Source: a virus. From it: a stretch of 37,229 bases of DNA. The position numbers were made by a program, and so were the translations under genes. Below are positions 411 through 36,912 of the stretch, in pieces. The stretch spans positions 1 through 37,229 of IMG/VR virus record IMGVR_UViG_3300030102_002537; one strand, given 5' to 3'. Within the stretch, counting starts at the first letter, position 1, and each line of letters starts with the position of its first letter. The notes under the pieces are model-generated. The model was not told where the DNA came from. It searched no databases and saw only the letters and a list, made by a program, of their open reading frames with translations.

Positions 411-422
411 TTACTAATACGG
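411..422 (-). promoter_or_regulatory. Early-arm 12-mer motif, copy without hairpin
   Basis: On the minus strand the sequence is CCGTATTAGTAA, matching the consensus NCGTNTTAGTAA found before twelve early genes. It sits 16 nt upstream of the ATG at 394. Unlike ten other copies there is no perfect hairpin directly before it. Confidence 0.65.
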
Positions 423-1671: not shown

Positions 1672-1709
1672 CTACTAAAACGATATTGAGGAGGCGTTTA
1701 AGCCTCCTC
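1672..1709 (-). terminator. Early cassette: hairpin with stop codon in loop, plus 12-mer
   Basis: Minus-strand GAGGAGGC (1709-1702), a loop containing the TAA of the preceding gene, then GCCTCCTC (1695-1688): a perfect 8-bp stem. It is followed after 4 nt by TCGTTTTAGTAG (1683-1672), the slightly variant early 12-mer, then the ribosome binding site of the GHKL gene. Confidence 0.75.
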
Positions 1710-1865
1710 TACTGAATTCACTTCCCATTTAGCATCAACAGGCATTGTGACATCTCCTTCTGCTATCACTTTGCTGTGTGCATCCCATTCATTATCACTT
1801 TCCAATTCAAAGTCTTCTTCAAACTGTTCAGTTACTGTCCACTTGACTGTGTATGTCTTAGTCAT
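1698..1865 (-). CDS. Small acidic protein, 55 residues, unknown
   Basis: Two adjacent ATGs (1868 and 1865) follow AAGGAGG; the second gives the better 6-nt spacing and is chosen. The product starts MTKTYTVKWTVTEQ and ends EVNSVEEA. Alternating hydrophobic residues suggest a small beta-alpha protein, and it is strongly acidic. It is translationally coupled to the preceding 52-residue gene, whose stop codon overlaps its start. Its own stop codon lies in the loop of the 1688-1709 hairpin. Family not recognised. Confidence 0.75.
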   Translation of the reverse strand: MTKTYTVKWTVTEQFEEDFELESDNEWDAHSKVIAEGDVTMPVDAKWEVNSVEEA

Positions 1866-2016
1866 CATTACCCTCCTTGAGTTGCTTGTTGAGTTCATCT
1901 ATTTTTTTCTGAACCCATACAACACCACGAGTATTGATAAGACTGTGAAGATTGAAAACATCAACCTCTTCTGAGATTTGTGCCATCTCTTCCAATTTTC
2001 TTTTAACATTTGCCAC
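1858..2016 (-). CDS. Small GTG-start protein, 52 residues, unknown
   Basis: A GTG at 2016 lies 4 nt after AAGGAGG, and the frame runs to a TAA at 1858, overlapping the start of the next gene by a few bases (translational coupling). The product starts (M)ANVKRKLEEMAQ and ends NKQLKEGNDD; it is charged and predicted helical, perhaps a short coiled coil. A longer frame in the same stretch (1899-2141) lacks a ribosome binding site and crosses the upstream hairpin, so it is a shadow. The 12-mer motif and hairpin at 2042-2080 precede it. Confidence 0.75.
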   Translation of the reverse strand: MANVKRKLEEMAQISEEVDVFNLHSLINTRGVVWVQKKIDELNKQLKEGNDD

Positions 2017-2041
2017 TTTACCTCCTTGCAAACATTGTTTA

Positions 2042-2080
2042 TTACTAAGACGAGACTCACAGGAGGGGCTTGTCTGTGAG
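2042..2080 (-). terminator. Early cassette: hairpin plus 12-mer
   Basis: Minus-strand CTCACAG (2080-2074) pairs with CTGTGAG (2062-2056) around an 11-nt loop, 9 nt after the stop codon of the DUF932-like gene. TCGTCTTAGTAA (2053-2042) follows after 2 nt, and AAGGAGG plus a GTG start come 25 nt later. Confidence 0.7.
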
Positions 2081-2089
2081 CCAAGGTTG

Positions 2090-3160
2090 TTAGGCTAGAG
2101 CAGGCTCTAGCACTGTGTTTGACAGATTTGCAACATCCCAACCGAACTTCTCAAACTCAGTAGCCCTGTCGTAGTCTTCTAAGTCTTGAGATGCCCTTGT
2201 TACAGCGTTTGTAAGTCCCCATTTAGTTGTGTCACCACCTTTGATTAAGTGGTTCAATACTGAGTCTTTCTCATCCTCTGTAAACTTAAACTGTTTCTGT
2301 ATTATTTCAACAGCATCGATAGGCTTTGCTATCTCAGTTTCTGTAGTTTCCCTGAGTTTTCCCAACACATTATTGAACCCTTCATTAGACAACACATTCC
2401 TCACTACATCTTGCACCTGACCAACTAAAGCCTCACTTGTTTTGTTCAGTGTGTCTCTGCTGAGTAAGTCTGTGATGTCATGTGATGCACCAATGTGTCT
2501 TCTTCTGAAAGATGTTTCTGCAATCATACCGTTCATGCAAACTAATCTTTCGATGAATGCTTGAACATTTACAGAACCATATCCAACTTCTGAATTACTT
2601 ACGATTACACCACCTCTGACAACATCACCCTTCTCAATCTCACCTGTAAGTTTGTCAGTTACAGCTTTGATGTAGAGTTTTTTCTCAGTAACATTGGATG
2701 AGATAATTTCTAGTTTCTCATCAAACATTACAGGCAACACAGCCTCGGCGACATCTTCATTATCAAAAGTCAGATACTTGTTGGACAAGTCAGCCCTCAT
2801 CAAATCCCAGACAGTTGAACCGTCTGATTGATAAGTTCTAATCATTCTTTTGTTTTGAGTTTGTCCTAGCCAGTTGTTAACATTTTCTGCTAACAATACT
2901 GGGTTGTTGTTCATTACTCTTTCGTAGTAAGCGTAAGGAATTTGCAACCTAGTTGCTAGTTGTCTGTGTGCAGTGGGTGTAATCTCCATTTGCTTTGAGT
3001 CATCAATACTCATTAAGACTGGAGCATTAGTTGTTACATCGTCTTGTTCAACTGGAAGTAATTGCATACTTCTGCTGTCCACGACCATATCAACTTTTTT
3101 CTCTGCTTGGTCTGTAATTTTCTTTGCTAACTCATTTATGTTTAATCCTAATTTTGGCAT
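2090..3160 (-). CDS. DUF932-like phage/plasmid protein
   Basis: The 356-residue product resembles the DUF932 (phage/plasmid-like TIGR03299-type) family: an N-terminal part with a helical segment ending in YAYYERVM, then WLGQ, an RMIRTYQSDG segment, a central region rich in beta strands with GVIVSNSEVGYGSVNVQAF, and a C-terminal helical half. The biochemical role of the family is not established; members are common in phages and plasmids and often sit with early or accessory genes. The ATG at 3160 is preceded by AGGAGG and the 12-mer at 3194-3205. No membrane segment or signal peptide is seen. Confidence 0.75.
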   Translation of the reverse strand: MPKLGLNINELAKKITDQAEKKVDMVVDSRSMQLLPVEQDDVTTNAPVLMSIDDSKQMEITPTAHRQLATRLQIPYAYYERVMNNNPVLLAENVNNWLGQTQNKRMIRTYQSDGSTVWDLMRADLSNKYLTFDNEDVAEAVLPVMFDEKLEIISSNVTEKKLYIKAVTDKLTGEIEKGDVVRGGVIVSNSEVGYGSVNVQAFIERLVCMNGMIAETSFRRRHIGASHDITDLLSRDTLNKTSEALVGQVQDVVRNVLSNEGFNNVLGKLRETTETEIAKPIDAVEIIQKQFKFTEDEKDSVLNHLIKGGDTTKWGLTNAVTRASQDLEDYDRATEFEKFGWDVANLSNTVLEPALA

Positions 3161-3193
3161 CTATGCCTCCTTTTGATGCCCCTCAATTTTTTA

Positions 3194-3234
3194 TTACTAA
3201 AACGATAGACTAGGTGGAGGACTCAACCTCCACC
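3194..3234 (-). terminator. Early cassette: hairpin plus 12-mer
   Basis: GGTGGAGG/CCTCCACC (3213-3234) is a perfect 8-bp stem with a 6-nt loop formed inside the last codons of the 98-residue gene; its TAG stop directly follows the 3' arm. TCGTTTTAGTAA (3205-3194) comes 7 nt later and leads into the DUF932-like gene. Confidence 0.75.
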
Positions 3235-3506
3235 TTCTGTAACTTTTTAAGCTGTTTCTTGGCACCTTTTTGCAAAGCTTTAGCCCACTCAACAAGTTTT
3301 TCTAGTTGCTCAATATCATCTGATAACCAAAATTGAACATCTGAATGGTATTTTGTTTGAGACAATTCAAGTCTTCTTGCATTGTCAATTCTGAAACTAA
3401 CTATATTTGCGTTTTTAGAATGATGATTAAAAATTTCATTGGCTGTTAAACCAAATAAATCACCATGGCTGTCAAGCAAAATGTTGTTTTCTTTTTCTTC
3501 TGTCAT
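3210..3506 (-). CDS. Early protein, 98 residues, unknown
   Basis: The start is placed at the ATG at 3506, after GGGAGG, rather than at an upstream in-frame codon that would cross the hairpin/12-mer cassette. The product begins MTEEKENNILLDSHGD and has a C-terminal lysine-rich helix (residues ~65-95) suggesting a short coiled coil or nucleic-acid contact. The last codons form the 5' and 3' arms of the downstream hairpin. Not assigned to a family. Confidence 0.75.
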   Translation of the reverse strand: MTEEKENNILLDSHGDLFGLTANEIFNHHSKNANIVSFRIDNARRLELSQTKYHSDVQFWLSDDIEQLEKLVEWAKALQKGAKKQLKKLQKVEVESST

Positions 3507-3537
3507 AATATTTACCTCCCTATTATGATTATATTTT

Positions 3538-3576
3538 TTACTAAAACGATACAATCGAGGGGCATGATTGCCCCTC
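3538..3576 (-). terminator. Early cassette: hairpin plus 12-mer
   Basis: GAGGGGCA/TGCCCCTC (3557-3576), perfect 8-bp stem with a 4-nt loop; the TGA stop of the 75-residue gene overlaps the first bases of the 5' arm. TCGTTTTAGTAA (3549-3538) follows after 7 nt. Confidence 0.75.
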
Positions 3577-3802
3577 ATTCAACTAATTCATTTAATTGAC
3601 TCGGGTCTTTTTCCCAAGGTTTAGTTCTTATGAATTCTATAATTCGTAAACAAGCTTGGTCAGAAATAAAACTATTATCTCCAAGCAAATTTGCTGATTG
3701 GATGTGACTTATAAAAAGTAAAACCTGTTTTGAAGTTTCATGACTTAGTTGTCTGCCATTTTCATCAACAAAAACTTTTCTATTTTCTATGTTAATTTTC
3801 AT
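3575..3802 (-). CDS. Early protein, 75 residues, unknown
   Basis: The ATG at 3802 follows AGGAGG and a 12-mer (3829-3840). The product starts MKINIENRKVFVDENG and looks like a small beta hairpin followed by helices; it has one cysteine and no membrane segment. Family not recognised. Its TGA lies at the foot of the downstream hairpin, as in the other early cassettes. Confidence 0.75.
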   Translation of the reverse strand: MKINIENRKVFVDENGRQLSHETSKQVLLFISHIQSANLLGDNSFISDQACLRIIEFIRTKPWEKDPSQLNELVE

Positions 3803-3828
3803 TATTACCTCCTATGAAAATTTATTTA

Positions 3829-3866
3829 TTACTAAAACGAAACCGAGCAGGGACTTAGCCCTGCTC
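3829..3866 (-). terminator. Early cassette: hairpin with stop codon in loop, plus 12-mer
   Basis: GAGCAGGG/CCCTGCTC (3845-3866), perfect 8-bp stem; the 6-nt loop contains the TAA stop of the 109-residue gene. TCGTTTTAGTAA (3840-3829) follows 4 nt after the stem. Confidence 0.78.
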
Positions 3867-4184
3867 TGGATTGTTTACCTCTTTGATTGTGTCAATGTCT
3901 GGGGTGTCTGGTGCACCATACTTTTGTTTGAGTTCATCAGTTGTCATGAGATAATCTGGGTCTATCTCAATCTCAACTCTTTCATCAATCAATTTAAGCA
4001 TTGTGTCTTGGTCAATTAAACCAGAGTCACACAATGCCACAAGCATTGTTACCATTAATCCTTTTGGTGCTGTGTTTTTATCTTTTGACCAATCAAACTC
4101 CCAATCTGGCTGTAACTCAACATATGAGTCAATCCAATCATAATTAGTAAGTTGGTCAATAAAAGTGGAAACTTGTTCATTCAT
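3855..4184 (-). CDS. Early acidic protein, 109 residues, unknown
   Basis: The ATG at 4184 follows AGGAGG, with the 12-mer at 4209-4220 upstream. The product starts MNEQVSTFIDQLTNYDW, is acidic, helical, and ends NNPEQG; the last codons encode one arm of the terminator hairpin and the stop is in its loop. No motif that I can assign. It sits in the run of single-gene early cassettes. Confidence 0.75.
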   Translation of the reverse strand: MNEQVSTFIDQLTNYDWIDSYVELQPDWEFDWSKDKNTAPKGLMVTMLVALCDSGLIDQDTMLKLIDERVEIEIDPDYLMTTDELKQKYGAPDTPDIDTIKEVNNPEQG

Positions 4185-4208
4185 AATATCCTCCTATATG
4201 AATTGTTT

Positions 4209-4238
4209 TTACTAAGACGGCAGGGTCATCAACCCTGC
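4209..4238 (-). terminator. Early cassette: hairpin with stop codon in loop, plus 12-mer
   Basis: GCAGGGT/ACCCTGC (4220-4238), perfect 7-bp stem; the TGA of the 27-residue gene is in the loop. CCGTCTTAGTAA (4220-4209) is contiguous with the stem. Confidence 0.75.
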
Positions 4239-4312
4239 TCTTTTAAGATTGTAAAAATAGAATTATCACTGACAACTATATTTCCTGTATCATTAATAGA
4301 CACTTCAATCAT
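4229..4312 (-). CDS. Microprotein, 27 residues
   Basis: The ATG at 4312 follows AAGGAGG with 5-nt spacing, and the 12-mer at 4339-4350 is in the usual place. The product is short: MIEVSINDTGNIVV followed by about 13 residues ending LKEQG, and the TGA lies in the loop of the following hairpin, as for longer early genes. The full cassette (motif, binding site, frame, hairpin) around a 27-codon frame argues it is translated. It could be a small regulator; function unknown. Confidence 0.65.
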   Translation of the reverse strand: MIEVSINDTGNIVVSDNSIFTILKEQG

Positions 4313-4338
4313 TTTAACCTCCTTGATTAAAGTTAGAG

Positions 4339-4376
4339 TTACTAAAACGAGGTTGGGAGGGGCATCCCTGCCCCTC
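4339..4376 (-). terminator. Early cassette: hairpin plus 12-mer
   Basis: GAGGGGCA/TGCCCCTC (4357-4376), perfect 8-bp stem with a 4-nt loop, 7 nt after the TAG of the 119-residue gene. TCGTTTTAGTAA (4350-4339) follows after 6 nt. Confidence 0.75.
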
Positions 4377-4383
4377 TCACTAT

Positions 4384-4743
4384 CTAAAGATAAAGTGGTG
4401 GTGGGTATCCTAAACCTCCTGCTTTAGCTTTACCCCACAATAAAAGTCTTATGTAGTGAAATGCTTTTTCATCTTTGCCTCCGATATGCCACATATCAAT
4501 ATCTTCTTTATCTAAACCATCAACTGGGTCGTAATTCTTTCCGTTTTTATAGTTGTAAATTGTTGCAACTGTTTTGTCAGGAAATTCAAAAATCCATTCG
4601 CATAGTATTTTTGCATCTCCACTTTCTCCCAAATGCTCTTCACCAAACACTGAAACAAGTTTGTCATAGGAAATATTTACATGCCCTATGAAACTGGTTC
4701 CAAAGTCGTTGAGAGTTGGTTTGATTGTGATTTCTGTTTCCAT
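4384..4743 (-). CDS. Conserved marine-phage protein, 119 residues, uncharacterised
   Basis: The start is the ATG at 4743, 8 nt after AAGGAGG; an ATG further upstream would put the binding site inside the gene. The product contains the pattern SFIGHV, SYDKLVSVFGE, a central CEWIFEF then TVATIYNYKNGKNY, and DMWHIGG. I recall this arrangement from many phage proteins of unknown role; it reads as a small alpha-beta domain. It has no catalytic motif I can name. It lies among the single-gene cassettes. Confidence 0.75.
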   Translation of the reverse strand: METEITIKPTLNDFGTSFIGHVNISYDKLVSVFGEEHLGESGDAKILCEWIFEFPDKTVATIYNYKNGKNYDPVDGLDKEDIDMWHIGGKDEKAFHYIRLLLWGKAKAGGLGYPPPLYL

Positions 4744-4773
4744 GATTAAATCCTCCTTCATCATGATTATTTT

Positions 4774-4812
4774 TTACTAATACGATTTACTGGGGGGCAT
4801 TTCAGCCCCCCA
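4774..4812 (-). terminator. Early cassette: hairpin plus 12-mer
   Basis: TGGGGGGC/GCCCCCCA (4791-4812), perfect 8-bp stem with a 6-nt loop, 5 nt after the stop of the 120-residue gene. TCGTATTAGTAA (4785-4774) follows after 5 nt. Confidence 0.75.
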
Positions 4813-4817
4813 TATTG

Positions 4818-5180
4818 TTAGGGTTGTATCTGTTTATCATATTGCTGAATAACTCTTCTTGCCTCATTCTTAGCCGTTTCAATAAACAGTCTTTTTATTT
4901 CTGCCCTGAATTGTCGCCTTGTCTTTGGTATTTCATTGACCTTCATACCGATACAACTTTTAACCATTTCTAAAGTTGGGTATTCAGGTTTTTCAACTGA
5001 ACCTAAAAACATAAATGCCATTTTAGTTTCAATGAGAATTTTATTTCTCAAGTAAACCTCATGGTAATTATCTTTGGTAATTTCTTGGTAACCTCCGAAC
5101 ATTGCATTAAAACCAAGTAATTTTTCTAAGTCTGAAATTCCTTGTTTTTCTTTGTTTGGGCTTTCAATTAATAATGACAT
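4818..5180 (-). CDS. Early protein, 120 residues, unknown
   Basis: The start is the ATG at 5180, preceded by AAGGAGG; a longer in-frame extension to 5258 would run through the 12-mer and part of the hairpin. The product begins MSLLIESPNKEKQG, has a hydrophobic middle (KMAFMFLG) and a basic C-terminal helix (RRQFRAEIKRLF, then RRVIQQYDKQ). The basic helix could contact nucleic acid. Family not recognised. Confidence 0.75.
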   Translation of the reverse strand: MSLLIESPNKEKQGISDLEKLLGFNAMFGGYQEITKDNYHEVYLRNKILIETKMAFMFLGSVEKPEYPTLEMVKSCIGMKVNEIPKTRRQFRAEIKRLFIETAKNEARRVIQQYDKQIQP

Positions 5181-5205
5181 AAATCCTCCTTGTGTCATTG
5201 GTTTA

Positions 5206-5252
5206 TTACTAAAACGGTAACGGTTGGAGGCTTGCGAAACCCCAACCGTTAC
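5206..5252 (-). terminator. Early cassette: long hairpin plus 12-mer
   Basis: GTAACGGTTGG/CCAACCGTTAC (5217-5252), perfect 11-bp stem with a 14-nt loop, 7 nt after the TAG of the 52-residue gene. CCGTTTTAGTAA (5217-5206) is contiguous with the stem. Confidence 0.78.
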
Positions 5253-5259
5253 AATCAAA

Positions 5260-5418
5260 CTAAACTTTGTCAGTCTGAGTCATCACTAAATTGCAAAACA
5301 TACACTTAGTTACTGTTCCATCGTCTGAACCGTAAATGATTTCATTTATTGGGTGAGAACAATTGTATTGTTTCCAAGTGATTTGTTTTGGGTGATTATT
5401 AACTATCCATGCTGCCAT
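5260..5418 (-). CDS. Small zinc-ribbon-like protein, 52 residues
   Basis: The ATG at 5418 follows GGAGG (AATGGAGGAACC) and the 12-mer at 5440-5451. The product begins MAAWIVNNHPKQITWK and contains Cys-Ser-His (residues 20-22) and, about 20 residues later, Cys-Met-Phe-Cys, an arrangement compatible with a single zinc ribbon. It is the first protein gene of the leftward arm, directly downstream of the large non-coding region. Small zinc ribbons of this type in early phage regions are often DNA- or protein-binding; that is inference. Confidence 0.75.
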   Translation of the reverse strand: MAAWIVNNHPKQITWKQYNCSHPINEIIYGSDDGTVTKCMFCNLVMTQTDKV

Positions 5419-5439
5419 GGTTCCTCCATTGCTAATTGT

Positions 5440-5483
5440 TTACTAAGACGATACCAAGCAACCAATTTGGAGGGGTTGCTTGG
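5440..5483 (-). terminator. Early cassette: 10-bp hairpin plus 12-mer at the end of the non-coding region
   Basis: CCAAGCAACC/GGTTGCTTGG (5454-5483), perfect 10-bp stem with a 10-nt loop. TCGTCTTAGTAA (5451-5440) follows after 2 nt. There is no protein gene before it, so it marks the 3' end of the putative non-coding RNA. Confidence 0.75.
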
Positions 5484-6205
5484 CGTTGTCTTGGGTTCTT
5501 TCGTTTCGGTTTATTAAACTTTGAATTTAATCCAAGGCTTGCGACTTGGAACCATACACCACCCACAGTTTCGGCTTCATTCCTGACTTTCACAGTTGTT
5601 CACTTAGTAATTTGTTTCAATAACCTAGACTTGAAAACATAATCAAATATTTACCCTTGGATGAATATTTTTTCTGTAACAAGTAACCACCACATGACCA
5701 GACAACCTCAACGATTAAATAATAATGTAGCTTTGTATTTTACTTTTAGTTATTTACTTAGGACTGCTTTTCTCATTCAACAGAACTTGTAGATGTTGCG
5801 TATTGCTTGTTATAAAAATCCTTCGGACTATCTCAGCAGGGCAGTGCCACGCCCTCCATAACCGAAATACTGTGTATTCAACTAATGCCCCAAGGGACAA
5901 CAGTCTTTTATTCTGTGACCAGTTCACAGCACCCCAGTTTGAACCTACCTGTAGGGACTATTTCTCAACTATGTTGTAGCCCCCCTCTTGGATTTCCAGT
6001 GCCTCAACAACTCGGAAACGTTTGCGTTCTTTCGTTCACATCAGGTCTAGAAGTTCATTTGACTTGACCGAATTACTCGGGGTCTATGACTTCCCCCCCC
6101 TGCCGTTTTATGTTGCCCCCACTTGTCAGGGTTCAAGCCTGACTCCTAAGCCTTCCATGTTTGCTCAGTCCCTGAGGGTCTAACAACCTACCAACAACAA
6201 CCACT
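5454..6205 (-). ncRNA. Putative large structured non-coding RNA, about 750 nt
   Basis: No frame with a ribosome binding site covers this stretch on either strand, yet it is bounded by a sigma70-like promoter (6241-6212) and a 10-bp hairpin (5454-5483). It is rich in helices when read leftward: GTCAGG/CCTGAC around 6126-6144 with a 7-nt loop, CTGTGA/TCACAG near 5914-5930, TTTCGG closing on CCGAAG (about 5823-5866), CAACA/TGTTG near 5779-5799, a bulged GTTTCAA/TTGAAAC helix (about 5614-5638), and a longer-range ATCCAAGG/CCTTGGAT pair (about 5655 with 5535). It also has G-runs of 5, 8 and 6. Size and phage location recall the GOLLD and ROOL classes of giant phage RNAs, but I cannot confirm a match. 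Confidence 0.55.
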
Positions 6206-6211
6206 CCGTTC

Positions 6212-6241
6212 ATCTTAACACCATATAAATCAATAAGTCAA
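6212..6241 (-). promoter_or_regulatory. Sigma70-like promoter of the leftward arm
   Basis: TTGACT (6241-6236), an 18-nt spacer and TAAGAT (6217-6212) on the minus strand. Predicted start is near 6205, giving a transcript that begins with the non-coding region and then the small early genes. Confidence 0.55.
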
Positions 6242-11702: not shown

Positions 11703-14700
11703 GTGACATTTCAAGACTTTCAAAGAGACGAACAATTACTTGACCAAGTAGCAAAAGAAACTATTGGTCCAAATGTAAAAGTAAAAGAACCCGGTAAGTT
11801 TAGACAGTTTTTAAATTATATTACTAATTTAGGTGACGTTGAACCAACCGTAAGCATTCCACAATATGGACCTCCTCAACCAACACAAGATGCCGGAATA
11901 CCTTTTTTTGGAGAAGGTGGTTTTATTGACCCAAATGTTGCTGGTCAAAGAACCAGAGAAACTGGAGCAGCACTTGCATCATTATTATCAAGAGGCACAT
12001 TAGGTGATGAAATATTTGGTGTTCCAGTTGAAATGGGTAATTTATTTCAAGGTCCAATAGACCCACAAACTGCAAGAGATTTTGGTGCACAGTTTGGTTC
12101 AGAAATTCCAGAAGCTGTACCTTTTGTAGGTGGCATGACTCCATTAGAAGCAACACTTGGTGGTGCTGCTACAATAGCAACTCCATTTGATGCAGCATTA
12201 ACTATAGGAACTGCAGGATTAGGACCTGCTGTGCTTAGAGGAGTAGGCACAGGTCTTGGAGGGAGAGTTGCAAGAACATTTTTAGAACCTGTTGCTAGTG
12301 GACCGTTTGGAAGAAGATTAGCAGCAGAAACTGCAATACAATTACCGGCTGCTACTACAATATCAGGCACAGAACAAAGACAACTAGAGGGTATTGCACA
12401 ACCATTTGAAAATACATTAACTGCTCTAGCAGCAGGTGCTTTACCAACTGCAGCAGGAGTTGGATTACTTGGCAGACAAGCAGCAAGACAAAGGCAACCA
12501 TTAGACGTACCAAATATATTAAGACCAACAGAAGTTGACCAACCATTTATACAACAATCTATATTTCCTTCTTATGGTACTGCACCTACACAACCAAGAA
12601 TGAGGGTAAGTATTTCACCATCTGTAACTGGTGAAGCAGACCAACCTGCAACAAGATTGTTTCCACAACAATATGTAGACAAACAAAATGAAATAAAGAA
12701 AATATTTCAAGAAAGTGGCGTAACACCAAGAAACAGATTGTTCTCAGAGTTGTCTGCTTTGAATGCAAACGCAGGTATTTTTATAGAAAATGAAAATAGA
12801 GGTTTACAAAACTTAGAAAGAGGATTTTCAGACCTCAGAATTGCACCGGGTGTTGGGCAATATTTTAATGAAATAGAACCGAGTATTGATATGATTGTTA
12901 CAAATCCAGCAAATTCTGATTTATCTGTTGCTAGAATTGTTGACATTGCAGACAAAGATTTAAATCAAAAAGAAATTATAATTACAAATAGAATTACACA
13001 AGCTGATTTAGAACCTGTAAGAGCACCAATGGGAACAGCAAGAAATCCACTAGAAGATTTGCCAATTGGTGAAGTTATTGAGCCGGGAGTAACTCGTGAT
13101 TTTTCAACTGTTTACACATTTAGAAATAGGTTAACAGATGATGATTTACAAGCTATTACACAACTTGCAAACGAAAATGGATTTGCAGGATTTACTGTAA
13201 GTGGTGATTTCCAATCACTTGAATATTTTACTGTTAGAAAGTATAATCCTAACTATGGAGAAGAATCAGACAAAATCATCGACTTCGAACAACTCATCAA
13301 CGATTACTTTCGGAGAACTGGTAGACAGAATGCAACGGAGGCGAGACCAACTGCGATTAGAACGAGGGTTGTCTCCCAAGAAAGTGGAGCCTTTACTCAG
13401 TCCTACACCGAGTACAAGAATCAGAATGCTGACAGGATTAACCAGATTCTTGAAGGGCAAGGAATAAGAGGTGCAGTAGACCCTGACGGCTCTATTGACT
13501 TTGAACAATTAAGGCTAGCAAGACCTTTAACATCTGAGCAAATCAACCAACCAACAAGACTTGGTGCTTTTGGTGAAAGACAAAGAGGTTTGATGCTTGG
13601 CAGTGATGGCACAGATATTCCTGAAGATATATTTAAAAACCTACCAAAAAATCTTATTGATGACAAAGAATTTGTATTTAGACTTCAATATGTTACCGAT
13701 GCAGAAAAAGAGTTCTTACGACCATTCTTAGATAGAGCAAATGCTCGTGCAAAAAGAGGTGAGCCAAGAGTTCTTACTGACAGCGAGATTGGTTTTGTAA
13801 AAAGAAGATTTTTAGCAAGAACAAACAGCAGAATCAATGAAGACTTTAGACCATGGGAAACTGGCAACTTACAACCCGAAAGAAGAGTTACACCACAAGA
13901 GATTGGTAACTTTTTACAAGATGTCGCAATGTTTATACCAAACACAATTGCTAGAACTAGATTTCTTGAGTCATTTGTAAAACTAGCAGACAGAGTTCCT
14001 AAACTTACTGACATAGATATTAAAAGACTAAGAAGGTTCTTTGGCAAAGACAATAAAATGGTTGATGGTGCAGAACAAATAGTTAATGACCCACGAGCAG
14101 CAAAACCAAAGATAGATAGAGGTCTATGGAATAACTCAGTGTTTCTTGCAAAAGCAATTAGAGGTACATTAGATTTTGGTGCAGTGTTAAGACAAAACGC
14201 AATATATACAGTATCAAGACCATTTACTACTGCTAAGTCTTTTGGGCAAGCATTAAAAGCAGCTTTGAGTGACGATGCAGTTTTAAGAAACGAGCAACTA
14301 CTTGAGCAAAACTCAAACTATAATAAGTTAATTGAGTCTGGAATGCGTTGGAATAAAACCGGACAAGATGTTGCTGCTGATAGAAGAGCAGAAGCATTTA
14401 TGTCAAACTTTATTGAAAAGCTACCAAAGGCATCAGTTATTGGACCTATACTTAGAGCATCTGCTAGATTCCATACACACTTTTTAAATAACATGAGGTT
14501 TAATGTAGCAAACCAAATGCTAAGTCCAAGACGACTTAGAAAAGCAACATCTCAAGAAGAGATTGATGATTTATACAGACAAGTATCAGAAATAGTAAAT
14601 ATCTTTACTGGAGAAGCTGATTTAAAAACAATACCAATAGCAGGTAAAAAGAAAGTTATTAGAGATGTAATGTATAACACAATGTGGGCACCAAGGCTTT

Positions 14701-15947
14701 GGTGGTCAAGAATATATTTACCAATATCAATATACAAAAATCCAATTGTTAGAAATGAAGCAGCACTTGACTTAGCAAAATTTATTGCTGTTGGTGGAGG
14801 TATATTAACACTTGCAAACATGGACCCAGATATAAGAGTAAATTATCGTAAAGGTGAAATAGCATTTAAAGACGGGACTAAATTAAAAATATGGGGTGGA
14901 TTTGAACAATTTATAAACTATGCTTTTGATTTAGCAAGAGACTACAAAACAAGTAGCACTGGTACTTACTATAAAGTTGGTGACATGGGCAATCTTGCAA
15001 ATAGATGGTGGAAACAAACATACCAATATTTGAGAGGTAAAGCAAACCCTGTAGTAGGAGAAATATTTGACCATGTAGGTGGAACAGATTTTTTTGGCGA
15101 AGATACTTATGACAGATACAATGTTGCAAATTGGAAATCAATATCATCAAAAAACCCTGCAATACAATCATTGGCACCATTAGTTCTTGCTGAGATAGTT
15201 GAACTTGTTGAAAACACAGATGACCCATACATGATAGCAACTGGTGCTGCAGGTGCAATGTTTGGAATTAATGTTAACTCATACAGAAACAAGGAAGATA
15301 CAGCGTTAAATATTTACAATAAAAGATTTGTTGAGTTAGAACCGTTTGAACAAAGAGTTGCAAATTTACATTATTATGCAGAAGATACAACAAGAGAGGT
15401 TCCTCCAACTTATGAATCTTTAAGTAATATGCAACAAAAAATAAATGGAATTTATGACACTTACGATACTAATAGTCTTAGAATAAGAGCATATTTTGAT
15501 GCAAAAGCAATAGCATCTCAAGAAAGAAGAGCAACTGCTGAACAAGAAGGTTTTGATTTTGAAGACCCGTTTTACAAGAACCAAATAAGGTTTGCAGGTT
15601 CTGATAGAGAAAGAGCAGCACTTGAAGCCTATTACGCATTGATGGAGCAATACACCACAGAAGACGAAGGATTGTTTTTGTATGATGATTTTAACAAAGC
15701 AAGAGATAGATTCTTAAAAGAATTAACAGTACCAGAAAGAGCATACATATCACGAAATACTAATTATCATGCTGAAACAATACCTCAAGAATTATTTAGA
15801 ATATTACCTAGAAATGAAAAAAGAAAACTATTAGATTCAATCAATGAACGTGCAAAATTAGACAGATTAACCTTGCAACCAATTGACCAACAAATAAAAG
15901 ATAGTTTTGAATCTCTGGCAGATAAGATTGAAAGCCAAGAAGATTAG
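11703..15947 (+). CDS. Giant virion protein (1,414 residues), large-polyvalent/internal-core type
   Basis: Starts with GTG at 11703 after GGAAGG. Residues ~150-260 contain Gly/Ala-rich hydrophobic stretches (TAGLGPAVLRGVGTGLGG; LTALAAGALPTAAG) that could cross or disturb a membrane. Residues ~330-640 are polar. From ~780 on there is a helical half with GTLDFGAVLRQNAIYTVSRPF, MWAPRLWWSRIYLP and KFIAVGGGILTLANM, a pattern I associate with the C-terminal domains of large polyvalent phage proteins. There is no visible polymerase or lytic transglycosylase motif. Position between portal and scaffold and the size suggest an internal core protein ejected at infection. Confidence 0.7.
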   Translation: MTFQDFQRDEQLLDQVAKETIGPNVKVKEPGKFRQFLNYITNLGDVEPTVSIPQYGPPQPTQDAGIPFFGEGGFIDPNVAGQRTRETGAALASLLSRGTLGDEIFGVPVEMGNLFQGPIDPQTARDFGAQFGSEIPEAVPFVGGMTPLEATLGGAATIATPFDAALTIGTAGLGPAVLRGVGTGLGGRVARTFLEPVASGPFGRRLAAETAIQLPAATTISGTEQRQLEGIAQPFENTLTALAAGALPTAAGVGLLGRQAARQRQPLDVPNILRPTEVDQPFIQQSIFPSYGTAPTQPRMRVSISPSVTGEADQPATRLFPQQYVDKQNEIKKIFQESGVTPRNRLFSELSALNANAGIFIENENRGLQNLERGFSDLRIAPGVGQYFNEIEPSIDMIVTNPANSDLSVARIVDIADKDLNQKEIIITNRITQADLEPVRAPMGTARNPLEDLPIGEVIEPGVTRDFSTVYTFRNRLTDDDLQAITQLANENGFAGFTVSGDFQSLEYFTVRKYNPNYGEESDKIIDFEQLINDYFRRTGRQNATEARPTAIRTRVVSQESGAFTQSYTEYKNQNADRINQILEGQGIRGAVDPDGSIDFEQLRLARPLTSEQINQPTRLGAFGERQRGLMLGSDGTDIPEDIFKNLPKNLIDDKEFVFRLQYVTDAEKEFLRPFLDRANARAKRGEPRVLTDSEIGFVKRRFLARTNSRINEDFRPWETGNLQPERRVTPQEIGNFLQDVAMFIPNTIARTRFLESFVKLADRVPKLTDIDIKRLRRFFGKDNKMVDGAEQIVNDPRAAKPKIDRGLWNNSVFLAKAIRGTLDFGAVLRQNAIYTVSRPFTTAKSFGQALKAALSDDAVLRNEQLLEQNSNYNKLIESGMRWNKTGQDVAADRRAEAFMSNFIEKLPKASVIGPILRASARFHTHFLNNMRFNVANQMLSPRRLRKATSQEEIDDLYRQVSEIVNIFTGEADLKTIPIAGKKKVIRDVMYNTMWAPRLWWSRIYLPISIYKNPIVRNEAALDLAKFIAVGGGILTLANMDPDIRVNYRKGEIAFKDGTKLKIWGGFEQFINYAFDLARDYKTSSTGTYYKVGDMGNLANRWWKQTYQYLRGKANPVVGEIFDHVGGTDFFGEDTYDRYNVANWKSISSKNPAIQSLAPLVLAEIVELVENTDDPYMIATGAAGAMFGINVNSYRNKEDTALNIYNKRFVELEPFEQRVANLHYYAEDTTREVPPTYESLSNMQQKINGIYDTYDTNSLRIRAYFDAKAIASQERRATAEQEGFDFEDPFYKNQIRFAGSDRERAALEAYYALMEQYTTEDEGLFLYDDFNKARDRFLKELTVPERAYISRNTNYHAETIPQELFRILPRNEKRKLLDSINERAKLDRLTLQPIDQQIKDSFESLADKIESQED

Positions 15948-36130: not shown

Positions 36131-36343
36131 TTAATTAATTGGTTGTAGGTTTTCGATAGAGCCGGCATCTTCAAGTCTACTCATGAAGTCATCGATAGAC
36201 TCCTTAGTAATCTTGATGTGAGTACCGACCTTGATTGACTTTATCTTGTTTTCTCTTATCAAGTCGTAAAGTCTGTTTCTACCTATACCCATTAGTTCTT
36301 TAGCCTCGAGGACTGTGTAAAGCATTTTATCCATTGTCTTCAC
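36131..36343 (-). CDS. Excisionase-type helix-turn-helix protein, 70 residues
   Basis: Contains YTVLEAKELMGIGRNRLYDL ... IKSIKVGTHIKITKESIDDF, the MerR-like winged helix-turn-helix of the excisionase/DNA-binding family. GTG 36343 has GGAG at 6-nt spacing; ATG 36334 is the alternative start. No integrase is present, so a regulatory (operator- or origin-binding) role is more likely than excision. Overlaps the upstream gene by 17 bp. Confidence 0.78.
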   Translation of the reverse strand: MKTMDKMLYTVLEAKELMGIGRNRLYDLIRENKIKSIKVGTHIKITKESIDDFMSRLEDAGSIENLQPIN

Positions 36344-36875
36344 TCAATTCTCCAAGTAGTTCTTCAGCACCTAATACTGCTTTCCTAACTACTCTGGCTG
36401 CAGTTTCACTCTTCATGAAACCTGCTGATACTAATCCCTCACAGTGAGGTGCTAGTTCAATCAGGGCTTTCACAGCAACCTGTCTTTCAATAGACCTGTT
36501 CCTGCCATCCACACTGCCACCTGATGAGGCAACAGGCACGGATACTTTTTCAGTAGATTCTACTGATTGTCCACCGTCAACTGGTTCCCATGACTGAATG
36601 TCATAGTAAAGTGTTCCTGTTCCACTTTGATTTATGGAAAGAACAGCAATACCTTTGGCTCCTACTGACAGTGCGTGAGGTGGGTTCCAGAACCCATTGA
36701 CCTCTTCAAGAATTACTTGATTGAAGTCTCTGTCTCTAACAGGATATTTACCCTGCATCTTTACAGTTACCTCAACTGGTAAGTAAGTTGCCCGTTGTCC
36801 TTTCATCTCAGATACTGACAATTCAATACTGTCATTCTCGTGAGCATAAGGATTGGACAAATTTTCAGTTGTCAT
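36327..36875 (-). CDS. Early protein, 182 residues, unknown
   Basis: ATG at 36875 with AAAGGAG. First half (residues 10-100) is beta-rich (SIELSVSEMKGQRATYLPVE; TLYYDIQSWEPVDGG); the second half is a polar linker then a helical domain (IERQVAVKALIELAPH; RVVRKAVLGAEELLG) with an acidic end. An OB-like single-strand-binding role is conceivable from layout but no SSB motif is seen. A promoter and the 12-mer motif lie just upstream. Confidence 0.65.
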   Translation of the reverse strand: MTTENLSNPYAHENDSIELSVSEMKGQRATYLPVEVTVKMQGKYPVRDRDFNQVILEEVNGFWNPPHALSVGAKGIAVLSINQSGTGTLYYDIQSWEPVDGGQSVESTEKVSVPVASSGGSVDGRNRSIERQVAVKALIELAPHCEGLVSAGFMKSETAARVVRKAVLGAEELLGELSEDNG

Positions 36876-36900: not shown

Positions 36901-36912
36901 TTACTAAAACGT
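36901..36912 (-). promoter_or_regulatory. Early-arm 12-mer motif at a predicted transcript start
   Basis: ACGTTTTAGTAA (36912-36901), 25 nt before the ATG at 36875. There is no hairpin before it; instead a promoter places the likely transcription start right at the motif. Confidence 0.65.

Follow-up and report, generated by a model that had tools for sequence, protein, structure and literature searches.

Hairpin and 12-mer elements form the junctions at which early-gene cassettes are joined and exchanged in a group of phages

Among known phage elements, morons are autonomous promoter-gene-terminator insertions, while the stoperators of cluster A mycobacteriophages are repeated sites of asymmetric sequence that follow the direction of transcription and lie in short gaps between genes. 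The promoter-early stem-loops (PeSLs) of T4-type phages, which comprise a strong sigma70-like early promoter and a stem-loop acting as an effective terminator, were reportedly dealt with by Arbiol in 2010 and Comeau in 2014. In the part of the PeSL account drawn on here, a stem-loop plus start element mediates modular shuffling in these T4-type phages (PMC4503421). The SAS elements of cluster K mycobacteriophages and Microbacterium EF phages are located at the ribosome site (PMC3203893, PMC11373665, PMC7302621), and ESAS are inverted repeats of conserved sequence with SigA-like promoters inside (PMC11373665). Here, we analyzed a 37,229-nt stretch of viral DNA (positions 1 to 37,229 of IMG/VR record IMGVR_UViG_3300030102_002537, further referred to as the window), in which a composite element, i.e., a hairpin followed by a 12-mer with the sequence CGTNTTAGTA(A/G), recurs between small early genes.

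Comparison with natural relatives showed that these elements are recombination junctions, with cassettes being joined, swapped and reordered in fixed orientation at the hairpin/12-mer. The initial annotation, which had proposed a recurring gene cassette whose 3′ end folds into a hairpin and precedes a fixed element, was supported in that respect but missed that the element is the site where cassettes are joined and exchanged. The main comparison comprised 16 contigs obtained from protein and pattern searches of IMG/VR, plus contig G025; since most of these contigs are closely related, junction counts are not fully independent events, and family names are based on profile matches alone. Clustering the genes after each site yielded 42 families, 164 junctions and 84 distinct adjacencies, and both orders were seen for 15 of the 166 family pairs present in at least two genomes, always in the same orientation. 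When the upstream side was shared, divergence started at core positions 9–14 in 46 of 54 pairs (and at 16–26 in the rest), and when the downstream side was shared it started at –10 to +2 (at –5 to +2 in 41 of 44), indicating that a cassette spans from the 12-mer to the next hairpin. Moreover, three different families (F10, F13 and F16) have a common C-terminal tail (PDTPDxDTIxEVNNPEQG) ending in the same hairpin, so exchange also involves the hairpin together with its coding tail.

Such precise junctions, and the reordering of cassettes in fixed orientation, would also be expected of a dedicated, integron-like site for site-specific recombination with only secondary expression signals. We nevertheless regard this reading as very improbable and rejected it, since the crossover point is not fixed: the variable base N of the 12-mer goes along with the upstream flank in 78% of comparisons and with the downstream flank in 58% (random expectation of 43%), which fits homologous exchange anywhere in the shared 10–16 bp better than one fixed cut. 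Furthermore, no recombinase family was found among the proteins scanned (a scan that covered part of the open reading frames (ORFs), including some of those in the late region), and the core is also conserved where no shuffling occurs. Specifically, the 12-mer at 36901, at the head of the replication-gene block, is kept in eight relatives and also, as GTCTTAGTAA, in the diverged G008, with neither hairpin nor shuffling there, which argues for a function of the 12-mer besides recombination.

Within the window, all 12 occurrences of the 12-mer are on the – (gene-sense) strand and none on the + strand, vs. a mean of 0.14 and a maximum of 1 in dinucleotide shuffles. The motif is carried by 15 of the 16 relatives, in a single orientation within each contig, and approximately 165 sites in the 16 contigs pass the ribosome-site filter. 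Its core, GTNTTAGTA(A/G), is nearly invariant across relatives, as is the GTNTTAGTAA core even at sites without hairpin and without shuffling, while the base preceding the core is mostly C but mostly A in G008, as though the whole set had shifted together. Base N was never G in 112 distinct junctions and is C at about one third of sites. The end of the core and the start codon are 13–35 nt apart (mode 25–26 nt), and an AGGAGG-type ribosome site is located in this interval. The copy at 1672 ends in G (CGTTTTAGTAG), and this G variant travels with the downstream gene encoding a 400-aa protein.

The structure of the hairpins is conserved while their sequence changes. As originally claimed, ten of the 12 copies in the window are preceded by a perfect hairpin with a stem of 7–11 bp, the copies at 411 and 36901 lack one, and stop codons lie in the loop (genes ending at 1698, 3855 and 4229) or against the stem. 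Across the relatives, 85 of 105 distinct upstream contexts contained a perfect stem of 7 bp or more that ended no further than 16 nt from the motif (vs. 1.9% of random positions), which bears out the enrichment anticipated between their early genes. These hairpins include 45 different stem arms, and the covariation that the initial annotation had read from one genome also holds across genomes, where the compensatory changes it had suggested looking for were indeed present. In the first hairpin, nine distinct phage sequences display 100% pairing with two-sided changes at 4 of 9 pairs, a result that no shuffle reached and that slid controls failed to reproduce, and G016 holds a G-U intermediate. 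An extended stem, in which the upstream flank would pair with the 12-mer, was rejected (mean extra energy of –3.92 vs. –3.97 for swapped flanks).

Given the close relatedness of most contigs, all of this could in principle reflect ordinary intrinsic terminators and ribosome sites conserved through recent shared descent. We consider this explanation to have next to no likelihood, as it is already contradicted by the diverged relatives G008, G012 and G025, which keep GTNTTAGTAA together with stems that are perfect but of different sequence; the dnaC-like protein of G008 and G012 is 71–76% identical, and the leaders of G012 and G025 are 54–64% identical to most others. It is contradicted as well by 32 unrelated loci (10 bacterial or archaeal genome stretches and 22 other viral contigs) that share the ribosome-site-plus-motif pattern, none of which has the hairpin. 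The major capsid protein of this 37-kb phage is distantly pelagiphage-like (27–31%), and by this relation the phage group is probably marine. Pelagiphages with a homologous capsid, however, lack the array, their early genes being tightly packed with 0–2 motif matches per genome. Since the chance matches elsewhere lack the hairpin too, the system seems to be restricted to this phage group. Among known phages, a query with a short consensus returned chance-level matches only.

As the overall best explanation, which we hold with somewhat better than even confidence, the early region would be a string of mobile, self-contained cassettes, each composed of a 12-mer, a short leader, a ribosome site, one (rarely two) small genes and a 3′ hairpin, with the composite of hairpin and 12-mer serving as both transcript boundary and crossover point. 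The hairpin would make or protect the 3′ end of one mRNA and the 12-mer would set the 5′ end of the next, whereby each cassette would be expressed wherever it lands. The shared 10–16 bp would at the same time provide a safe crossover point for recombination, making single-gene swaps of accessory genes possible with expression intact. The initial notion of one gene per unit mostly holds, although two genes share the cassette between 2042 and 1672.

Regarding the 12-mer itself, our leading choice, at a little under an even chance, is a start signal in the form of a non-sigma70 promoter read by the host RNA polymerase and a putative factor. This leaning stems from contig G011 of an unrelated phage, in which the 400-aa cassette gene is 91% identical while the major capsid protein is only 28% identical. 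In G011, this gene lies behind a perfect 12/12 sigma70 promoter match (TTGACA-16-TATAAT) and faces a convergent neighboring ORF, so a gene of this kind can form a transcription unit of its own; the predicted promoter would thus fill the slot that the 12-mer fills here.

Several observations nevertheless weigh against this boundary reading. Although their stems are strong, the hairpins would be poor intrinsic terminators by the usual standard, and efficient termination is doubtful because U-tracts (5 or more T among the following 8 nt) are present at only 9 of 89 hairpins and missing at the other 80. Aligned 12-mer sites revealed neither a –35 nor a –10 in register, the proteins scanned yielded no phage RNA polymerase or sigma factor, and a sigma70-type promoter upstream of the array could transcribe all of it. 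The terminate-and-restart unit proposed in the initial annotation consequently stands only in part: the 400-aa gene with its own promoter in G011 speaks for it, while the lack of U-tracts and of –35/–10 architecture, the conserved upstream promoter, and a number of sigma70-type sites in the array equal to shuffle expectation speak against it. Without a conserved hexamer in register or an excess of such sites, a sigma70 promoter hidden in the hairpin/12-mer was rejected. An archaeal TATA box was also discarded, by reasoning only, as its spacing would give leaderless mRNAs, contrary to the conserved ribosome sites. With the terminase/642-aa genes on one side and the capsid gene on the other, the + strand (11703–15947) encodes a 1,414-aa protein without matches in Pfam or PHROGs; it was considered as a virion RNA polymerase and dismissed, having no family match and a sequence unlike one.

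The nearest alternative, to which we give a tentative place below the start signal, is that the 12-mer acts at the RNA level, as a cleavage site or 5′ leader in a long transcript from the upstream promoter (6241–6212), with cuts at the 12-mer leaving hairpin-capped 3′ ends and short 5′ leaders. The upstream sigma70-type promoter with its long leader, the hairpins without U-tracts and the stop codons abutting them would all suit such RNA punctuation. RNase E prefers RN↓WUU, and GU↓NUU at the 12-mer fits this preference, as does an N that is never G. On the other hand, about one third of sites have C as N, ten nearly invariant positions exceed the needs of RNase E, and the core does not stand out as single-stranded in predictions (mean unpaired of 0.47 vs. 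0.49 for the whole segment), which also led us to drop the idea of a specially unpaired 12-mer. More speculatively, and somewhat less probable again, GTNTTAGTAA may be the recognition site of a new phage-controlled expression factor (a promoter class or a sequence-specific transcript cutter), with a cassette pool being shared in the phage population and exchanged at GTNTTAGTAA.

It seems rather unlikely that the 12-mer is instead bound by a phage regulator, as DNA or as RNA, in the manner of a mycobacteriophage stoperator or an antitermination site. The 12-mer is indeed asymmetric, intergenic and of one orientation, the phage encodes small helix-turn-helix proteins, and in G025 (L103/L107) one extra GTCTTAGTAA copy lies outside any cassette, just upstream of a sigma70-type early promoter. 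This extra copy was seen in G025 only, though, and could be due to chance, and no repressor or integrase was found among the proteins scanned. Compared with that, a start signal remains our preferred reading of the 12-mer.

Early transcription can start upstream of the array, given the sigma70-type promoter located there, which has a TTGACA or TTGACT –35 in relatives other than G008. The untranslated, strongly structured leader that follows has homologs of approximately 720–810 nt in G001–G016 and L107, which form a mosaic of two to three types. A consensus fold of six leaders displayed two-sided changes at 37 of 184 pairs, with 47 pairs being broken in at least one sequence, and the leader had no match in Rfam; it is possibly a new large phage non-coding RNA (ncRNA), as judged from this modeled fold. 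In 14 of 15 leaders, a AAATTACTA(A/G) patch complementary to the 12-mer core was present approximately 160 nt before the first 12-mer, and would be able to close the last leader domain with that 12-mer; it is incomplete in G025 and absent in G008. Pairing of the leader RNA as an antisense to the 12-mer via this patch was not relied on, the evidence being weak and duplex energies being within shuffle range in most leaders.

The features of the early array are listed in Table 1. The window covers most of a 37,842-nt virus record, the ends of which overlap and are thus circularly redundant, and a further motif copy at 37466 of the record is the 411 site re-read in these overlapping ends. Late genes run rightward, while early and replication genes run leftward from approximately 5590 across the record ends to approximately 31970.

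Table 1. Positions of the promoter, leader, hairpins and 12-mers of the early array in the window.
Feature	Position	Strand	Remarks
Sigma70-type promoter TTGACT-18-TAAGAT, TG-extended	6212..6241	–	Head of leftward early region; consensus match only
Untranslated structured leader/putative ncRNA, ~750 nt	5454..6205	–	Ends in first hairpin
Hairpin 1, 10-bp stem	5454..5483	–	Before 52-aa cassette; 4/9 pairs covary, 100% paired in 9 phages
12-mer, first cassette	5440..5451	–	52-aa gene 5260–5418
Hairpin 2, 11-bp stem	5217..5252	–	
12-mer	5206..5217	–	Before 120-aa gene 4818–5180
Hairpin 3, 8-bp stem	4791..4812	–	
12-mer	4774..4785	–	Before 119-aa gene 4384–4743
Hairpin 4, 8-bp stem	4357..4376	–	
12-mer	4339..4350	–	Before 27-aa gene 4229–4312
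Hairpin 5, 7-bp stem	4220..4238	–	Loop holds stop codon
12-mer	4209..4220	–	Before 109-aa gene 3855–4184
Hairpin 6, 8-bp stem	3845..3866	–	Loop holds stop codon
12-mer	3829..3840	–	Before 75-aa gene 3575–3802
Hairpin 7, 8-bp stem	3557..3576	–	Stop codon adjoins stem
12-mer	3538..3549	–	Before 98-aa gene 3210–3506
Hairpin 8, 9-bp stem	3212..3235	–	Stop codon touches stem
12-mer	3194..3205	–	Before 356-aa DUF932 gene 2090–3160
Hairpin 9, 7-bp stem	2056..2080	–	11-nt loop
12-mer	2042..2053	–	Before two-gene cassette (52 aa at 1858–2016, then at most 66 aa at 1698–1898)
Hairpin 10, 8-bp stem	1688..1709	–	Loop holds stop codon
12-mer, G-ending variant	1672..1683	–	Before 400-aa gene 446–1648
12-mer without hairpin	411..422	–	Before 59-aa gene 215–394
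12-mer without hairpin	36901..36912	–	Before 182-aa gene 36327–36875, first of replication-gene block

At the site matching 411, a longer imperfect hairpin is present in G002, G004, G005, G009 and G012. Upstream of the 12-mer at 36901 on the – strand, a TATAGT, TATGGT or TATATT sequence is located 17 nt after TTGCAG in the window (W), G008 and G012, and this TTGCAG-17-TATAGT-type site is possibly a weak sigma70 promoter, from which the RNA would begin directly with the 12-mer. At 126–151 on the – strand, a hairpin was noted that, unlike the cassette hairpins, is of the canonical type with a U-tract (ACGGTGACC...GGTCACCGT GTCTTTTTAG), and the gene after it has neither a 12-mer nor a clear ribosome site. 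The 400-aa protein (– strand of the window; 238–1440 in L024) had no matches in Pfam or PHROG but contains ELVTNVFDE and DDGGGF motifs, by which it is, by eye, putatively GHKL ATPase-like (rIIA-like). On either side of its gene in the window lies one arm of an 11-bp inverted repeat, GTAGAGGGCAT/ATGCCCTCTAC (1664–1675 and 411–430), which spans the leader and the 3′ end, and this repeat was not found in relatives whose 3′ hairpin differs.

The accessory regions of phages change rapidly by mechanisms that are seldom visible, while here the junctions are readable base by base in natural relatives, with 42 gene families each being exchanged as a unit at a 10-letter signal that is coupled to a hairpin of conserved structure. 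Swaps of one early gene without disturbing its neighbors thereby become directly testable outside T4-type phages, and the combination of hairpin, GTNTTAGTAA and ribosome site offers a search key for unknown small early genes of marine phages.

In look, SAS/ESAS are the closest known elements, as they share a short, asymmetric conserved sequence that recurs close to where many small right-arm genes start, frequently accompanied by an inverted repeat upstream, and as the same element occurs on different genes. The 12-mer, however, lies upstream of a separate AGGAGG and ends 13–35 nt before the start, and its hairpins differ from one another in stem sequence and contain no SigA-like promoter. Stoperators are likewise oriented, asymmetric sites in intergenic gaps, but no repressor or lysogeny module was identified here, and the 12-mer is tied to hairpins and cassette junctions. 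Whereas morons similarly are single genes with their own boundary signals placed between other genes, the present array is a whole tandem string with one common junction sequence. It also differs from an integron array, as a scan of part of the ORFs yielded no integrase or other site-specific recombinase and as the crossover is not fixed, N following either flank. In behavior, PeSLs are the closest: they too are composite intergenic elements of a stem-loop and a start element, present in many copies among small accessory genes that are shuffled between close relatives at the element. The present element works like PeSLs and yet is not one, as of their defining features the strong sigma70-like promoter within the element is replaced by a fixed GTNTTAGTAA, and the T4-like myovirus genome by that of a 37-kb phage; its hairpins are also without U-tracts, and it stands once per gene in a continuous array. 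This locus is thus a case of PeSL-like behavior in an unrelated phage with a different start signal.

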